Source: Clostridia bacterium (GTDB taxonomy: Bacteria; Bacillota; Clostridia; Christensenellales; CAG-1252). Taken from it: a stretch of DNA of 35,464 nt. The position numbers were made by a program, and so were the translations under genes. Below, piece after piece: positions 26,937 to 35,464 of the stretch; position 1 is the stretch's first letter, and each line of letters begins with the position of its first letter. The stretch covers positions 1 through 35,464 of the forward strand of contig JAGCXI010000054.1 of the NCBI GenBank assembly GCA_017961365.1, read 5' to 3'. The notes under the pieces were generated by a model that saw only the letters and a program-made list of their open reading frames with translations, ran no database searches and was not told where the DNA came from.

Positions 26937-29276
26937 ATGAAAAAGAAACTACTGATTATAACATTTGCGTGCGTAGCATCCTTGCTCGTCTTGACCCTTG
27001 TGGGCTGTGGATTATTCGGCAGCAGTTCAAACAATTCATCAAGCAATAATTCCGTAAATGAAGTCGAGCAAGAACCCACCTATGAGAAAATCGCCACCGC
27101 CGCAGAGCTTGCTGATTTAGCAAATAAGGGCGGACGCTACCAACTGGCAAACGATATCGATCTCAGCGACGAAGAATGGTCACCGATCGACGCTTTCACC
27201 GGCGAATTAAACGGTGACGGGAAAACGATTCGGGGATTGAACATTTCGGGGAACAAAGAAAACATCGGATTATTCTCAACGCTGAAAGGAACGGTAAAAA
27301 ACTTGAGCCTCGCTGACGTCAACATCACGATGACCGGTAACGCAGGAACGGCGGGCGCACTCTGCGGAACGAATGAAGGAAAGATCGAAGACGTGACGGT
27401 TGGCGGCAGAATAAATGCCCCATATTATAATTTGGTCGGAGGAATCGCCGGCAAATCTACAAATACAAACATCAGCAATTGCCAAAATCAAATCCAAATA
27501 ACGGCATATGATACGGTCGGCGGGATCGTTGGGAATTTAATTGCCGCAAAAAAATCGACCTTTGGAAGCAATAAAAATTCCGCTATCGTCAACGGAAATG
27601 ACAATGTGGGCGGGATCATAGGATCTTTAACCGTAACAACCGATTGGAACAATTGGGAAGTAAGCATTAGTGATAACGGAAATAATGGGCAAGTCATCGG
27701 AAGCGGCGACTATATCGGAGGCATCATAGGCAAGGCGGTGGGCTGGAGCTATAGCTCGTACACTCATACGATCGCGATATCCGACTGCTCTAATAAAAAA
27801 GAAATCAGCGGCAGAGATTACGTCGCCGGCATTATCGGCTACGGATCATATATCAATGAAATCAGCACATGCGGCAATGCTGCCGATGTCTCCGGTAATA
27901 ATTATGTTGGCGGATATGCCGGCTATACCGGAACAAGAACAAGCATACAGCTTGCCGAGAATAATAATATCATTTCCGGAAAAGCATATATCGGCGGAAT
28001 TGCGGGAAGTACAGGAACGTTGATCAATTGTACAAACAACGGCGAGATCATTTCTTCCGGCGTAGTCATAGAGTCCTCAAACCGCATCGCATGCGTCGGC
28101 GGTATCGCAGGATGTGCAAAATCGCTGGAAAAATGCACAAATAATCGGGACATAAACGTTACGACGCAAGGCTATTATATCGCAGGCGTCGTCGGTTTGT
28201 TGAATCCGGAGAAAGGATCTTCGGTAAAACAATGTAAAAACGACAGTTCTGTCATCGGCAATTATTATGTAGGCGGCATTATCGGTTCGCTGAAAATCAA
28301 AGCGGACGATTGGAACAATTGGGATGTAAGCGTCAGCGACAACGAAAATAACGGCGAAATATCCGGCAGTGGAAATTATGTCGGGGGTATTTTCGGAAGT
28401 GCCGTAGGCTGGAGCTACAGTTCCTACACTCATACGATCACGCTATCCAGCTGCAACAATAAAAAAGAAATCAGCGGAAACGATTATACGGGCGGCATAG
28501 TCGGTTACGGAGAATACATTGACGAGATCAGCGCCTGCAACAATACTGCCGATGTCTCCGGAAACAATTACGTTGGCGGATATGCCGGCTATACCGGAAC
28601 AAGAACAAGTATACAGCTTGCCGAAAATAATAATACCATTTCCGGAAAAGCATATATCGGCGGAATTGCGGGAAGTACCGGTTCCCTGACGCTTTGCACG
28701 AACAACGGCGAGATCATTTCTTCCGGAGTCATCATAGAGTCAACCACTGGTATCGCGTGCGTCGGCGGAATCGCAGGATATGCAAAATCCTTAGAAAAAT
28801 GCACCAACAATACAGATATAACCGTTACGACGCAGGGCTATTATGTCGCGGGCATTGTCGGTTTGATGAATCCAGACAAGAAATCTTCGATAAGGCAATG
28901 TAAAAACTACGGTTCTATCAGTGGCAATTATTATGTAGGCGGCATTATCGGTTCGCTGAAAATCAAAGCGGACGATTGGAACAATTGGGATGTAAATGTC
29001 AGCGACAACGAAAACCATGGCGACATAATCGGCAGCGGACAATACGTCGGTGGCATTGTGGGAAGTGCGATAGGATGGAAATACAGCTCCTACACTCACA
29101 CGATTACCATATCAAACTGCATTAATAATAAAGAGATCGACGGATCCGTTTATTGCGGAGGCATCATCGGATATGGCGAATATGTGCCAAAAACCGATGC
29201 GATTTGGGAAACGAACACAAGCACGGGTGCCGTTTCCGGCAGCTACAGCGGCGCAAAATACGGATACTTAAAATAA
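26937..29276 (+). CDS. GLUG-repeat lipoprotein
   Basis: A 779-residue predicted lipoprotein: a KKK start, a hydrophobic signal and lipobox LVGC (lipidated Cys24), then a Ser/Asn linker. The body is made of short Gly-rich strands such as YVGGIIGS, YIGGIAGS and VGGIAGYA alternating with NNGEI or NNKEI turns, the GLUG motif pattern expected to form a right-handed beta-helix. A 222-residue block is repeated in tandem. GGAGG lies seven bases before the ATG. Composition is AT-rich compared with the neighbourhood. Surface adhesion or binding is the usual guess for such proteins; nothing in the sequence proves it. No catalytic domain is seen. Confidence 0.88.
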   Translation: MKKKLLIITFACVASLLVLTLVGCGLFGSSSNNSSSNNSVNEVEQEPTYEKIATAAELADLANKGGRYQLANDIDLSDEEWSPIDAFTGELNGDGKTIRGLNISGNKENIGLFSTLKGTVKNLSLADVNITMTGNAGTAGALCGTNEGKIEDVTVGGRINAPYYNLVGGIAGKSTNTNISNCQNQIQITAYDTVGGIVGNLIAAKKSTFGSNKNSAIVNGNDNVGGIIGSLTVTTDWNNWEVSISDNGNNGQVIGSGDYIGGIIGKAVGWSYSSYTHTIAISDCSNKKEISGRDYVAGIIGYGSYINEISTCGNAADVSGNNYVGGYAGYTGTRTSIQLAENNNIISGKAYIGGIAGSTGTLINCTNNGEIISSGVVIESSNRIACVGGIAGCAKSLEKCTNNRDINVTTQGYYIAGVVGLLNPEKGSSVKQCKNDSSVIGNYYVGGIIGSLKIKADDWNNWDVSVSDNENNGEISGSGNYVGGIFGSAVGWSYSSYTHTITLSSCNNKKEISGNDYTGGIVGYGEYIDEISACNNTADVSGNNYVGGYAGYTGTRTSIQLAENNNTISGKAYIGGIAGSTGSLTLCTNNGEIISSGVIIESTTGIACVGGIAGYAKSLEKCTNNTDITVTTQGYYVAGIVGLMNPDKKSSIRQCKNYGSISGNYYVGGIIGSLKIKADDWNNWDVNVSDNENHGDIIGSGQYVGGIVGSAIGWKYSSYTHTITISNCINNKEIDGSVYCGGIIGYGEYVPKTDAIWETNTSTGAVSGSYSGAKYGYLK
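27600..29220 (+). repeat. 666-bp tandem repeats in the lipoprotein gene
   Basis: The marker DWNNW falls at bases 27642, 28308 and 28974, exactly 666 bases (222 codons) apart each time. Copies 1 and 2 are complete and copy 3 is partial (about 80 codons). Long stretches are identical at the protein level (for example NNYVGGYAGYTGTRTS in both full copies), so the duplication is recent or kept uniform by gene conversion. The outer limits are approximate. Confidence 0.88.
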
Positions 29277-29379: not shown

Positions 29380-32300
29380 TCACCTTTTCCGCTCTTTGAT
29401 GATGAAATTCTCCGGTCCGACGAGACCATACATCTCCGCCACGAAGCCTTCGCTGTCCGCGACGGTCTTATCATGGAGATAATACTTGCCGCCCGAGAAG
29501 AAATAAAGCTGGACGCCGCCTTTATGCGCGGCGCAGATCTCCTTCGCCTTTTCATAAAGTGAAGCGTAATTCGAGGGAAGATTCACCACGTAAACGATGT
29601 TTCTTTCGGGCTTCGCCTCTTCCGTCGCAGTCACTGCCCAAGAACGGACATTGCGGATATTCAAGCTGTACTTGCCGTTTCTTTCCTTTAAGCTGCCGTC
29701 GAGGATGACGATATTTCCGGATTTCAAGAGGTCCTTTCCGCGGGCGAAGGCGCCGCCATACGCCACGCATTCAATGGTGCCGTCGAGGTCTTGGAGCTTC
29801 ATGATCGCCATCTCGTTTCCTTTCTTATCCGCCTTTTTCACGACGTCGAGCAACATGCCCGCCGCAAGGACGTTCTTCCCGTCCAGATCCGGCAGATCCA
29901 CGACGGCTTCCTCGGACTCCGCGGCGGCGAGGATCGCCTCCTCCGCTTCCGCCACCTGTCCCGTAGAGAAGGAAAGATCCTTATACGCGGCGGCATAATC
30001 TTCGAGCGGATGCCCCGAGAGATAGAGGGAGAGCACCTCGAATTCATTGTCGAGGAGCTGTCGCCTGCCGAGCTCTTTCAGCCGCACGATATCCACGTCG
30101 GTACTAAGGCTCTCGATCTCGTCGAAGAGGGAGAACTGCCCCGACATCTTCCTTTTATTATCTTCCGCGGTGGCGCTCATCACCTGCTCATAATTCGCGA
30201 TAAGGGTGGCGCGCGTCTCGCCGAGACAGTCGAAGGCGCCCGCTTTGATGAGATTCTCGATCATCGCGCGATTCGGCATGGAGGTCTGACGGCGGAAGAA
30301 ATCCGAGAGGCTCTTATACTTCCCGCCGCGCTTTCTCTCCTCGATGACGTGCCGCGCCGCGTCCTCCCCCACCGCTTTGACGGCGACGAGTCCGAAGCGA
30401 ACGGTCTTGCCGTCCGTCGTAAAGAAGACGTCTCCTTCATTGATATCGGGACGAAGCACTTGATAGCCTTTCTTGCGGAGATAATTCACGTATTTCGCCA
30501 CTTCTTTCGGATTCGTGATGCGGTCATTGATGACGGCGGCGATAAATTCCGGCGTGTAATACTTCTTCAAATACGCCGTTTCGTAAGAAAGGACGGCGTA
30601 CGCCGCCGCGTGCGATTTATTGAAAGCGTACTTTGCGAAATTCGTCATCTCGTCGAAGAGCTTGGTGGCGACTTCCTCCGTGGCGCCGCGCTTCAAAGCA
30701 CCCTCCACCGCGGTGAGATTCGCCTTGTGATAGACGGGACAGCCATGGAAGAAGATCTTCTTTTGCTCGTCCATCAGCTTGGCTTTCTTCTTGCTCATAA
30801 TGCGGCGCAGGATGTCCGCTCTGCCGTAGCTATAGCCCGCGATCTCACGCGCGATCTGCATGACCTGCTCTTGATAGACCAAGCAGCCGTAAGTCATCTC
30901 GAGGATGGGACGGAGACGCTCGTCAAGATACGTGATCTTTTCCGGATTATTCTTATTCTCGACATAGGTGTCGATGCTGTCCATCGGACCCGGGCGATAA
31001 AGCGAGATGCCTGCGATGATATCTTCCATCGAGGTGGGGCGAAGCTGGGTCATAAAGCGTTTCATCCCGCCGCTTTCAAGCTGGAAGACCGAGTCCGTAT
31101 CACCGGAGGCGATGAGCTTATAGACTTCGGGGTTCTCATAGCCGAGCTCGTGGAAATCGATGTCCACGCCGTGATTCGCTTTGATATATTGCTTCGCTTT
31201 ATTGACGTCGGTCAAGGTAACGAGCCCCAAGAAGTCCATCTTGAGCATGCCGAGGGCTTCCACCTGATCTTTGGGGTACTGCGTGGTGACGACCTCTCCG
31301 TTTCTTTGCAGCGGAACGAAATCGCCCACGACTTCTTTACAGATGACGACGCCCGCCGCGTGCATGCCCGTATTTCGCGGCATACCCTCGACTTTGAGCG
31401 CCATATCCAAGACTTTGCGTATCGTGGGATCGCTTTCATAAAGCTGGATGACGTCGGGACTGCGCTGATCGTTATGCTTCTCATCCCTGCCGAGGATGCC
31501 CTTGATACTCATCTTTCCATTCGCTTCGGGGAGCATCTTCACGAGCTTGTCCACGTCCGCGTAGGGCACTCGATACACCCTCGCGACGTCCTTGATGGCT
31601 TGCTTGGCGGCAAGGGTACCGAAGGTGATGATCCTCGTCACGCGCTCGGGGCCGTATTTTTCACGGACGTACTGAATGACCTGCTCTCTGCCTTCCATGC
31701 AGAAGTCGATATCGAAATCGGGGTTCGAGACCCTTTCTTTATTCAGGAAGCGCTCGAAAATGAGGTTAAAACGCAGGGGGTCGACATTCGTGATCCCGAT
31801 GGCATAAGCAATGATGCTGCCCACGCCGCTGCCACGTCCCGCGCCGACGGGGATGCCGTTTCGGCGAGCATAATCGATGAAATCCCAGACGATGAGATAA
31901 TACTCCGCGAAGCCCATGTCGATGATGACGGAAAGCTCGTACTCCATTCTCTCCTTGATCTCGTCCGTGATCTCGGGATAACGCTTCACGATGCCTTCAT
32001 ACGCCAAGCGGCGCAGATAGTCTCCCGCGGTCTCCCCCGTCGGCGGGATATAAGGCGGGAAAAGCGGCATCTTGAACTTGATATCCACATTGCATTTCTC
32101 GGCGATCTCGAGGGTGGTGTCCAAGGCTTCCGGGACGTTCGGGAAAAGCTCGAGCATCTCGTCATAGGTCTTGAAATAATAATAAGGACCGTTCATCCGC
32201 ATACGGGTCTCGTCGTCGATATAATGCGCCGTGCCGATACAGATCAAGACGTCCTGCATCTCGGCGTCTTCTTTCTCCACGTAATGGACGTCATTCGTGG

Positions 32301-33012
32301 CGACCACCTTGATGCCGAGCTCTTTGCTCATCTTTAAGAGATTCACCGTGACTTTCTTCTCGAGGGGGATGTCATGGTTTTGGATCTCGAAATAATAATC
32401 GTCGCCGAAGACTTCCTTAAACCAGAGCGCGAGGGAACGCGCCTTCTCGAAATCATCGTTCTGTATGGCGCGCGGCAAAATGCCCGCAATACAGGCGGAG
32501 AGGCAAACGAGCCCTTCGGAATGTGCCTTCAAGGTCTCGAAATCGATCCTCGGATGGGTGTAAAATCCATCCACCCAAGCGATGGTATTCAGCTTGCAAA
32601 GATTATAATACCCCACTTCGTTCTTCGCGAGCAGGATGAGGTGATACGTGGCGCTCGTGCGCTCTTTCACCTTAAGATCCTCGCACATATAAAATTCACA
32701 GCCGATGATGGGCTTGATGCGGAGGTGTTTCAAACGCGCGTAATCGTCCTTGGTGGGGACGACGTCGTCGAAAGCGATCTCCTCACCCGCCGCCTTCTTC
32801 TCCTCGAAGACTACGTTCTTGACCTGCTTCTCGAAATCCGCTTGCGCGGCATTATAAAAATCCACCGCGCCGTACATATTCCCGTGATCGGTGATGGCGA
32901 TGGCGGGCATATTCAAACTGCGCGCTTTGGCGAAAAGACGGTCTATCCTCGCGGCGCCGTCCAAAAGGCTGTATTCCGTGTGTAAATGCAGATGTACGAA
33001 TGGTTTGCTCAT
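29380..33012 (-). CDS. dnaE: DNA polymerase III alpha subunit, DnaE type
   Basis: A 1210-residue replicative polymerase subunit. An N-terminal PHP domain (FVHLHLHTEYSLLDG, AITDHGNMYG, VATNDVHYVE) is followed by the C-family polymerase core with the catalytic Asp pair in NPDFDIDFCMEGRE (near residue 430) and YRPGPMDSID, the helix-hairpin-helix region around 880-900 and a C-terminal OB fold (MAIMKLQDLDGTIECVAYGGAF). There is no internal exonuclease, so it is DnaE, not PolC. AGGGG precedes the ATG. It is the last gene of the hprK-murB-whiA-HPr cluster, 22 bases after the HPr-like gene. Confidence 0.96.
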   Translation of the reverse strand: MSKPFVHLHLHTEYSLLDGAARIDRLFAKARSLNMPAIAITDHGNMYGAVDFYNAAQADFEKQVKNVVFEEKKAAGEEIAFDDVVPTKDDYARLKHLRIKPIIGCEFYMCEDLKVKERTSATYHLILLAKNEVGYYNLCKLNTIAWVDGFYTHPRIDFETLKAHSEGLVCLSACIAGILPRAIQNDDFEKARSLALWFKEVFGDDYYFEIQNHDIPLEKKVTVNLLKMSKELGIKVVATNDVHYVEKEDAEMQDVLICIGTAHYIDDETRMRMNGPYYYFKTYDEMLELFPNVPEALDTTLEIAEKCNVDIKFKMPLFPPYIPPTGETAGDYLRRLAYEGIVKRYPEITDEIKERMEYELSVIIDMGFAEYYLIVWDFIDYARRNGIPVGAGRGSGVGSIIAYAIGITNVDPLRFNLIFERFLNKERVSNPDFDIDFCMEGREQVIQYVREKYGPERVTRIITFGTLAAKQAIKDVARVYRVPYADVDKLVKMLPEANGKMSIKGILGRDEKHNDQRSPDVIQLYESDPTIRKVLDMALKVEGMPRNTGMHAAGVVICKEVVGDFVPLQRNGEVVTTQYPKDQVEALGMLKMDFLGLVTLTDVNKAKQYIKANHGVDIDFHELGYENPEVYKLIASGDTDSVFQLESGGMKRFMTQLRPTSMEDIIAGISLYRPGPMDSIDTYVENKNNPEKITYLDERLRPILEMTYGCLVYQEQVMQIAREIAGYSYGRADILRRIMSKKKAKLMDEQKKIFFHGCPVYHKANLTAVEGALKRGATEEVATKLFDEMTNFAKYAFNKSHAAAYAVLSYETAYLKKYYTPEFIAAVINDRITNPKEVAKYVNYLRKKGYQVLRPDINEGDVFFTTDGKTVRFGLVAVKAVGEDAARHVIEERKRGGKYKSLSDFFRRQTSMPNRAMIENLIKAGAFDCLGETRATLIANYEQVMSATAEDNKRKMSGQFSLFDEIESLSTDVDIVRLKELGRRQLLDNEFEVLSLYLSGHPLEDYAAAYKDLSFSTGQVAEAEEAILAAAESEEAVVDLPDLDGKNVLAAGMLLDVVKKADKKGNEMAIMKLQDLDGTIECVAYGGAFARGKDLLKSGNIVILDGSLKERNGKYSLNIRNVRSWAVTATEEAKPERNIVYVVNLPSNYASLYEKAKEICAAHKGGVQLYFFSGGKYYLHDKTVADSEGFVAEMYGLVGPENFIIKERKR

Positions 33013-33034: not shown

Positions 33035-33271
33035 TTATATCAATGCGCGTAAGCGTTCCGCCGCTTTCTCCGCGTCCTTCCCCTCCGTAACGAGAGTGAG
33101 CGCGCTCCCCTTCTTATAGGAAAGAGAGATAAGCCCCATAAGGCTCTTGACATTCGCGCCTTTGTCTTTATATAAAAGCCGCACGTCGGCGCGCGTCTCG
33201 GAAGCCACCTCGGCAAGGCGCTTCGCGAGAGGAAGCGTCAGATCGGTCTTCGCCGTCAGCACAAGTTTCAT
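33035..33271 (-). CDS. HPr-like protein lacking the catalytic histidine (Crh-like)
   Basis: A 78-residue HPr-fold protein. Aligned with HPr, the PEP-phosphorylated His15 position is Thr12 (TDLTLPLAKRL), and the Arg17 position is also lost. The regulatory serine region is kept: NVKSLMGLISL with Ser43, exactly 31 residues after Thr12, as Ser46 follows His15 in HPr. This is the pattern of Crh, which cannot take part in sugar transport but is a substrate of HPr kinase and partners CcpA. hprK lies 1.9 kb upstream in the same cluster. The start overlaps the whiA stop by four bases. A regulatory role is inferred. Confidence 0.85.
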   Translation of the reverse strand: MKLVLTAKTDLTLPLAKRLAEVASETRADVRLLYKDKGANVKSLMGLISLSYKKGSALTLVTEGKDAEKAAERLRALI

Positions 33272-34209
33272 TCTTCTTTCTCCCTGATCTCATTCGCGAT
33301 CTCCGCGAGTTTCTCGAAACGATGATACAGCCCGCTTTTCGAGATGGGTTCGGGCAATGATTCGCGCAAAGCCTCCAGCGAAAGATCGGGATTCGCCAGC
33401 CTCGCTTCCGCCACAGACGCCAGCTCGGACGGAAGAGTCAGGAAAGAGCGACGCTCCTTGATGAGAAGGACGTCGTTATATTGCTTGACCGCCGCGATCA
33501 TCGACTTATCGAGATTCGCCACGTTGAGCTGTTCGGCGCGCCTTATCTTATTTCGCGCTTCGCTTTTCACGATCATATCCTGCATGGACAGCACGCTCTT
33601 CGTGGCGCCGATCAAGGCGAAGAGATCACTGATCGCCTGCGCCTTCCTCGTGCTGAGAAAGTACTTCCCATCTTTCTCCTGCTTTTTCATTTCGATCTCT
33701 TGCCGCAGGAGAAACTGCATGAAAGCGTCCGCAGCGTCCTCGAGCTCAAAGGTCAAAGTCACGCGCAAACTCCCCGAAGCGCGGCTTGTACTGCCCACGG
33801 AGAGAAAGACGCCGCGCGCATATTCCGAAGCTTCCTTTTGCGAAGAGATGCGGGATCTTACGCCGTTATCGAGCGAGAGCACGACGCCGTCCTGCGCCTT
33901 CACTTTCCCGAGATCCGTCAGAATGCGCAAAGCATATCGGCCGCGCACTTCCACGGAAAAAAGCTTATGGCGACGCTTGTCCTTCGGACGAATGATCCCC
34001 ACCTCGACGGCGTAAGAATACTCTTTTTTGACGTACTCCGCGAATTCGAGCGCGAGACGATAATCCGGCGTGGAATAAAAAAGATAGTACCCCTTATCAT
34101 CCCTGCCGAGCTCCCCTCCGAAAGTCAAGAGCGCGGCGACATAACCGTCCCCGACCCCGCCTTCCGCGAGCGAATGCAATTCGTCTTTGACCGCTTGATC
34201 CGTCAGCAT
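33268..34209 (-). CDS. whiA: WhiA-family DNA-binding protein
   Basis: A 313-residue protein with an N-terminal degenerate LAGLIDADG homing-endonuclease-like region (SEYARGVFLSVGSTSRASGSLRVTLTFELEDAADAF) and a C-terminal HTH (NPDLSLEALRESLPEPISKSGLYHRFEKL). NKIRRAEQLNVANLDKS matches the family's N-R-x-x-N-x-x-x-A-N segment. In Gram-positive bacteria WhiA influences cell division and chromosome segregation. Its start overlaps murB by seven bases and its stop overlaps the HPr-like gene by four bases. RapZ and YvcK, its common upstream neighbours, are absent here. Confidence 0.93.
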   Translation of the reverse strand: MLTDQAVKDELHSLAEGGVGDGYVAALLTFGGELGRDDKGYYLFYSTPDYRLALEFAEYVKKEYSYAVEVGIIRPKDKRRHKLFSVEVRGRYALRILTDLGKVKAQDGVVLSLDNGVRSRISSQKEASEYARGVFLSVGSTSRASGSLRVTLTFELEDAADAFMQFLLRQEIEMKKQEKDGKYFLSTRKAQAISDLFALIGATKSVLSMQDMIVKSEARNKIRRAEQLNVANLDKSMIAAVKQYNDVLLIKERRSFLTLPSELASVAEARLANPDLSLEALRESLPEPISKSGLYHRFEKLAEIANEIREKEE

Positions 34210-35090
34210 AAGATCCTCTCCGTTTCGTATTCGAGCGTGACGCCCGTCCTCTCTTTCACCGCGCGCCGCACTTCTTCCGCGAGGACAAAAAAGTCCTCTG
34301 TCTTCGCGCCGCCGCGATTCACGATAAAATTACAATGTTTGGTCGAGAGCTCCGCGCCGCCGACCACCCTGCCTTTCAGCCCCGTTTCTTCGATATAAAG
34401 CGCGGCGGGCTTCTCCCCCACACGGCGGAAGACGCTTCCCGCCGACTTGCCGAAGGGCTGCGTGGCGGCTCTTTTTCTTGCGAGCTCCCGCATCTTCTCG
34501 GCGATGCGCCCCGCTTCACCTTTTCGAAGATCGAAGGTGGCGGACAAGATCAAAGCGCCCGCGGGGATCCCTCCCCTATGATACTCCGTCTTGAGCGCGG
34601 AAGAAGGCAAGGTCTGCTCTTTCCCATCGAGGATGACATCCACGCTCCGAAGCGCGTCCGAGACGCCCATTCCGAAAGCCGAGGCATTCATATACACCGC
34701 GCCGCCGATCTTCCCGGGGATCCCTTCCGCGTATTCCGCGCCGGACAGCGCCGCTTCTCGACATTTTCGCGAGAAGACCGCCATCGGGAGCCCTGCGCCC
34801 ACCGTGACGGAAACGCCGTTGACCGAGAATGTCTTCAGCCGATCCAAGCGCAGGATGACGCCGTCATATCCTTCGTCCGGAAAGAGCACGTTGCTCCCCG
34901 CGCCGAGCACGCGATACGCCACGCCTTCTTCCCCGAAAAGGGAGAGGAGGCTTTTCACTTCCTCGACGCTCGAGGGATAGGCGACGACCGCCGCGTCCCC
35001 TCCGCTTCCGAAAGTGGTCAGAGAGGCACCCGCCACATCCGTCCTACATAAAACGCCCGATCGGGCAAGCCGCTTTTTCACGCTTTGCAT
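34203..35090 (-). CDS. murB: UDP-N-acetylenolpyruvoylglucosamine reductase
   Basis: A 295-residue FAD enzyme that makes UDP-N-acetylmuramate from the enolpyruvyl intermediate, an early cytoplasmic step of peptidoglycan synthesis. FAD-binding GAGSN (63-67), GIPGKIGGAVYMNASAFG (123-140), the catalytic Ser219 in KSAGSVFRR and GAELSTKHCNFIVN are those of the short type II MurB of Firmicutes. CGGAGG precedes the ATG. It lies 57 bases after hprK and overlaps whiA by seven bases. Confidence 0.95.
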   Translation of the reverse strand: MQSVKKRLARSGVLCRTDVAGASLTTFGSGGDAAVVAYPSSVEEVKSLLSLFGEEGVAYRVLGAGSNVLFPDEGYDGVILRLDRLKTFSVNGVSVTVGAGLPMAVFSRKCREAALSGAEYAEGIPGKIGGAVYMNASAFGMGVSDALRSVDVILDGKEQTLPSSALKTEYHRGGIPAGALILSATFDLRKGEAGRIAEKMRELARKRAATQPFGKSAGSVFRRVGEKPAALYIEETGLKGRVVGGAELSTKHCNFIVNRGGAKTEDFFVLAEEVRRAVKERTGVTLEYETERILC

Positions 35091-35147: not shown

Positions 35148-35464
35148 TTAATCGCTCTGCTTTTTCAGCCTTTCTTCCAGCTCCTGCGGCGCGCTGTACC
35201 CCATCTCCTTGAGACGAAGAGACGCCACCGCCGCCTCGATGACCGCGAAAAGATTTCTGCCCGCTTTCACGGGGATCTCGAGCTTCGGCAGACTTACGCC
35301 GAGGATCTCCTCGCGAAGGTCCTCCGTGCCGAGACGCTCATACGTCTTTCCCTCTTCCCAAGCGACGAGCTCGAAGACCGCGTCCACGGACTTATTCACA
35401 CGCACGGCGACCGAGCCGAACATCCGCTCCACATTGATGATCCCCACGCCGCGGATCTCGAGCA
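35148..35464 (-). CDS. hprK: HPr kinase/phosphorylase, C-terminal part (5' partial)
   Basis: The frame is open to the right edge; only the last 105 or so residues are in the window. It begins LEIRGVGIINVERMFG, the HprK signature, and continues with VAWEEGKTYERLG and the conserved LPKLEIPVKAGRNLFAVIEAAV end. The P-loop lies outside. HprK phosphorylates HPr and Crh on the regulatory Ser when glycolytic intermediates are high. A GTG at 35447 is internal, not the start. It is first in the cluster leading to the Crh-like gene. Confidence 0.93.
   Translation of the reverse strand, partial: LEIRGVGIINVERMFGSVAVRVNKSVDAVFELVAWEEGKTYERLGTEDLREEILGVSLPKLEIPVKAGRNLFAVIEAAVASLRLKEMGYSAPQELEERLKKQSD

Follow-up and report, generated by a model that had tools for sequence, protein, structure and literature searches.

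The pairing of HprK with a serine-bearing substrate of the HPr type is normally explained by control of the PTS and by CcpA. The locus described here raises the question of what such a pair would do in bacteria in which these two explanations are not at hand. The window analysed (the whole stretch of DNA, 35,464 nucleotides) comes from a clostridial genome, G000, and carries a tightly packed run of genes on the reverse strand, hprK–murB–whiA–crh-like–dnaE (Table 1).

Gene organization

Table 1. Features of the gene run, with positions in the window
Feature	Position	Strand	Description
crh-like gene	33035..33271	(-)	78 aa, ATG start; Thr12 (codon ACG) at the His15 site, Ser43 (codon AGC) at the Ser46 site
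ATGA overlap, whiA stop/crh-like start	33268..33271	(-)	present in 13/13 genus members
whiA	33268..34209	(-)	313 aa; TIGR00647 144 bits versus a 44-bit cut-off; PF02650 and PF14527
murB	34203..35090	(-)	295 aa; profile matches
hprK, C-terminal domain alone	35148..35464	(-)	PF07475 105 bits; TIGR00679 matched at 198–299 of 300
dnaE	29380..33012	(-)	1210 aa; start 22 bases past the crh-like stop

In the initial annotation the crh-like gene was placed in one cluster with hprK, whiA and dnaE. Profile matches support these neighbours and add murB, but the window does not hold a complete hprK: the gene is truncated where the contig stops, and the missing N-terminal segment, in which the Walker A motif (GSSGIGKS) is intact, is found at the beginning of contig C60. 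Translation of the crh-like gene is likely to be coupled to that of whiA through the ATGA overlap. On the opposite strand lies a 779-residue ORF (26937–29276) whose start (LLVLTLVGCG) resembles that of a lipoprotein and whose long GLUG-like repeats fall into two near-identical halves; judged by eye, it probably encodes a surface protein.

An HPr fold without the PTS phosphorylation site

The crh-like protein matches the Pfam PTS-HPr family (PF00381) at 57.3 bits (cut-off 23; E = 1.6e-15). In an alignment with B. subtilis HPr and Crh, Thr12 occupies the His15 site and Ser43 the Ser46 site, without gaps across the relevant region, in agreement with the original description of a Crh-like HPr that lacks His15 and keeps Ser46 at the HPr spacing. 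In the same alignment A16-R17-P18 of the HPr loop is replaced by LPL (residues 13–15). An AlphaFold2 model of the protein (mean pLDDT 95.9) has the strand and helix order of HPr, with Thr12 directly N-terminal of helix A and Ser43 directly N-terminal of helix B, as are His15 and Ser46 in HPr. The closest PDB structures are HPr and Crh, with TM-scores of up to 0.94 for HPr and 0.92 for B. subtilis Crh (PDB entry 1zvv); the first fold match is a phosphocarrier from R. cellulolyticum (PDB entry 7ff5).

The profile score above the curated cut-off together with the fold places the protein in the HPr superfamily. It is not a PTS phosphocarrier, which carries His15 in a GxHARP loop. Two features of Crh are present, namely the loss of His15 with retention of Ser46 and the neighbouring whiA. 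The protein scores 45.7 bits with NF010354 (PRK13782), below the cut-off of 123; we take this model to be the Crh equivalog, its table name being only 'HPr family phosphocarrier protein'.

Conservation within the genus

The comparison covered 13 members of the genus, all of them incomplete MAGs (71–97%), so that single absences carry little weight. The crh-like gene lies beside whiA in the same run in all 13 and is intact in each. Position 12 is Thr, Ser or Asp and in no case His, the residue whose occurrence in close relatives would have spoken against the initial annotation, while Ser43 is invariant (13/13). The median pairwise dN/dS is 0.18 for the genus pairs with usable dS. The fixed place, the invariant serine and this ratio together argue that the gene is not a chance occurrence. 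hprK is likewise present in all 13 members; each of the 12 complete copies retains intact motifs, as does that of G000 across its two pieces. Neither HPr nor HprK was found in the sister genera g2 and g3. A scan of named genomes matched only close relatives with the same kind of locus and one unrelated HPr.

A second HPr in the same genome

A search of the genome for a true HPr with His15, as suggested by the initial annotation, located one elsewhere, next to ptsI. Among the 13 genus members such a PTS HPr occurs only in G000 and G009, where it adjoins a ptsI frame of 548 codons and a fructose-type EII (IIBC). Both copies read IHARPA around His15 and LKRIIAVM around position 46, and thus have His15 together with Arg in place of Ser46. 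By its sequence this second HPr would not be open to seryl phosphorylation at position 46, which leaves the crh-like protein as the only HPr-type HprK substrate found in the genome. The His15 and Ser46 functions, joint on B. subtilis HPr, are divided here between two proteins. The crh-like protein shares with PTS HPr the fold and the Ser46 region but lacks His15 and does not adjoin ptsI.

The combination of His15 with Arg or Lys at position 46 marks one clade of PTS HPrs from several Clostridia, many of them encoded beside ptsI, and judging from this residue the whole clade should escape control by HprK. Examples are found at loci L001 and L003 (match at 1501–1740) and at L048, L056, L062, L213, L217, L230 and others. 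Arg46 was also considered as an adaptation to the loss of HprK, which we reject because it is a property of this one, largely ptsI-linked clade both with and without HprK. We likewise reject an origin of the crh-like gene by recent duplication of the PTS HPr: in the HPr tree, which has few alignment columns and rough support, the window gene groups with whiA-linked homologues, apart from the PTS HPr in its R/K46 clade.

Search for PTS components, CcpA and MgsA

Neither a PTS HPr nor a clear EI was found in 11 of the 13 genus members. An EI of normal length is confined to G000 and G009, the remaining PEP-utiliser matches in the genus being frames of some 900 codons, fragments or weaker hits. 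When G000, G002 and G010 were searched with the N-terminal family specific to EI, it was found in G000 only.

The two best-known partners of Crh are CcpA, to which its P-Ser form binds, and MgsA, which its unmodified form inhibits. CcpA (TIGR01481) was found in none of the 13 genus members, 12 of which have no match at E ≤ 0.001; in the remaining one (G003) a weak LacI-type match scores 61 bits against a cut-off of 442. The same cut-off, which may be tuned to Bacilli, is passed by none of the 121 genomes surveyed in the order. MgsA was not found in any of 20 genomes of the family. Both families were detected in control genomes. CcpA as the output in the genus and MgsA as the output are therefore rejected, and the route through CcpA put forward in the initial annotation is unlikely.

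These absences bear directly on whether the protein is a classical Crh of the Bacillus subtilis kind, mediating carbon catabolite repression as the corepressor of CcpA. The fold, the serine, the lost histidine and the whiA neighbour are all shared with that protein, and for other clostridial Crh-like proteins a joint action with CcpA-like LacI regulators has been proposed (PMC3656788, PMC3526391). Besides the missing CcpA, the position of Arg17, a CcpA contact, is occupied by Pro in the window protein. On these grounds we consider a classical Crh very unlikely. Across the whiA-linked copies of the order, residue 17 is Arg or Lys in 18 of the 37 whose genomes have LacI-family matches and in 2 of the 22 whose genomes have none; this association is confounded by ancestry and was set aside.

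Since the NF010354 cut-off is not reached and the defining partners of Crh are missing, we regard the protein as a variant of Crh rather than Crh proper. It resembles B. subtilis Crh (operon glmR-whiA-crh) in its fold, in the loss of His15 and retention of Ser46, in the adjacent whiA and in the presence of hprK in the genome; it differs in being only 36% identical and seven residues shorter, in the replacement of residues 16–18 and in having hprK in the same gene run. Crh-like proteins have also been reported in Clostridia, namely Ccel_0806 of Clostridium cellulolyticum (PMC3656788) and Crh of Thermoanaerobacterium saccharolyticum (PMC3526391), and C. cellulolyticum is likewise reported to be without an HPr orthologue and a cognate EII (PMC3656788). 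In contrast to the present genus, in which none was found, both are discussed alongside CcpA-like regulators.

Distribution across the order and class

In the 121 genomes of the order, HPr-like proteins were sorted into three groups. Group A consists of His15 HPrs, mostly near ptsI. Group B is whiA-linked and comprises 59 proteins including those of the 13 genus members: Ser46 is present in 59/59 and His15 is lost in 58/59. Only Ser46, Gly49 and Gly67 are invariant in this group, while position 15 is taken by 13 different residues. The single copy with His at position 15 belongs to G132 (L083, ORF 1545–1850; DGLHPKTS), where Arg17 is replaced by Lys. Proteins of group C are about 76 residues long, lack the His15 loop, have the motif DAKSILGIF with Ser46 in 44/44, and are not whiA-linked. 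The family (VVDAKSILGIFSLDLS) occurs in 43 genomes, every one with HprK (loci L107–L150, L181, L182, L185, L188, L189); in the GTDB family f6 the gene lies about 1.7–4.6 kb from hprK. Group C is possibly a second, as yet undescribed HprK substrate.

Of the 121 genomes, 72 contain both a Ser46-bearing HPr-like protein and HprK, and 42 contain neither; the discordant classes hold one genome and six. The association (Fisher p = 8e-25) is uncorrected for ancestry and reflects shared ancestry in part. The GTDB families f1, f3, f14, f22 and f29 hold both states, and within them a genome mostly has either both genes or neither. In three of the six genomes with HprK only, a weaker group C gene that had fallen below the first threshold lies near hprK; the other three are without a detected Ser46 protein. 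The whiA-linked protein of G092 (L052) is the only one in the order sample with Ser46 and no detected HprK, which may reflect an assembly gap. EI is found in 15 of the 121 genomes and HprK in 78, nine of these with EI; HprK and a serine substrate without EI is thus the usual state of the order.

In HPr genes sampled across the class, His15 is kept in five of 16 whiA-linked copies and lost in the rest, and all have Ser46. The simplest history would be an HPr gene beside whiA that repeatedly lost its His15, although the alignment is too short to prove it. Another reading is a decaying relic of the whiA-linked HPr after loss of the PTS, devoid of a function of its own. The lost and variable His loop would fit a relic, as would the persistence of the gene in several PTS-less genomes; the five copies with His15 in other Clostridia suggest an ancestral HPr at that place. 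A relic is nevertheless extremely improbable, given the dN/dS of about 0.18 and the intact frames in the genus and the retention of Ser46 throughout group B, with loss and retention tracking hprK: the serine alone would not survive in a relic.

A proposed signalling role

We consider it quite probable that the protein is a Crh-type signalling protein under the control of HprK, with an output other than CcpA or MgsA. The HPr fold would have been retained and the PTS phosphorylation site lost, leaving a signal carrier only, co-translated with WhiA. HprK would, like its characterised counterparts, respond to glycolytic status, with fructose-1,6-bisphosphate and ATP on one side and phosphate on the other, by phosphorylating or dephosphorylating Ser43. 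The case for this draws on the residues, on their conservation and on the co-occurrence with an HprK whose motifs are intact. In G000 and G009, PTS duty would fall to the second HPr (His15, Arg46) encoded with ptsI and the fructose-type EII.

The output is inferred by elimination, being neither the PTS nor CcpA nor MgsA. With neither CcpA nor MgsA at hand, we propose that P-Ser or unmodified Crh most likely binds another protein directly, which may be a GAPDH-like glycolytic enzyme, the ATPase of an ABC sugar transporter, another regulator or possibly WhiA. GapA is named as a CcpA-independent partner of Crh/HPr in work cited in PMC8004850 (Pompeo et al., 2007).

The neighbourhood itself invites a more specific reading, in which the protein is a partner of WhiA (or of wall control of the MurB/GlmR type) and its phosphorylation acts as a switch that ties division to carbon status. 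The gene order and ATGA overlap are fixed throughout the genus, and whiA is the neighbour of all 59 order-level copies. The whiA-crh neighbourhood is already known: in B. subtilis the two genes form an operon with glmR, and WhiA has a link with carbon metabolism (PMC10714963). However, gene order alone is weak evidence, no fusion was seen, and the division defect on WhiA depletion in B. subtilis reportedly does not stem from reduced crh (PMC10714963). A WhiA partner is accordingly unlikely. The suggestion in the initial annotation of a link between carbon status and division or replication had gene order as its only basis, and this order does not set the lineage apart: many Clostridia have whiA beside a gene of the HPr type, and it is also found in Bacillus.

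What appears to be new is the combination of features, i.e. the retention of the pair without PTS, CcpA and MgsA together with the distribution of His15 and Ser46 between two separate proteins of the same genome. In open-licence papers, nothing more specific on a PTS-free HprK/Crh was found. Conservation of HprK and its serine substrate where neither PTS nor CcpA is found suggests that the pair is kept for another purpose. We lean towards an HprK–Crh switch that is independent of the PTS and of CcpA/MgsA and directly controls an undescribed target, with the roles of His15 and Ser46 divided in this genome. This raises the question of the binding partner of P-Ser-Crh where both CcpA and MgsA are missing. 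Rumen metagenomes are the source of several close relatives, so that an answer may be relevant to the sensing of sugar supply by PTS-poor gut bacteria.
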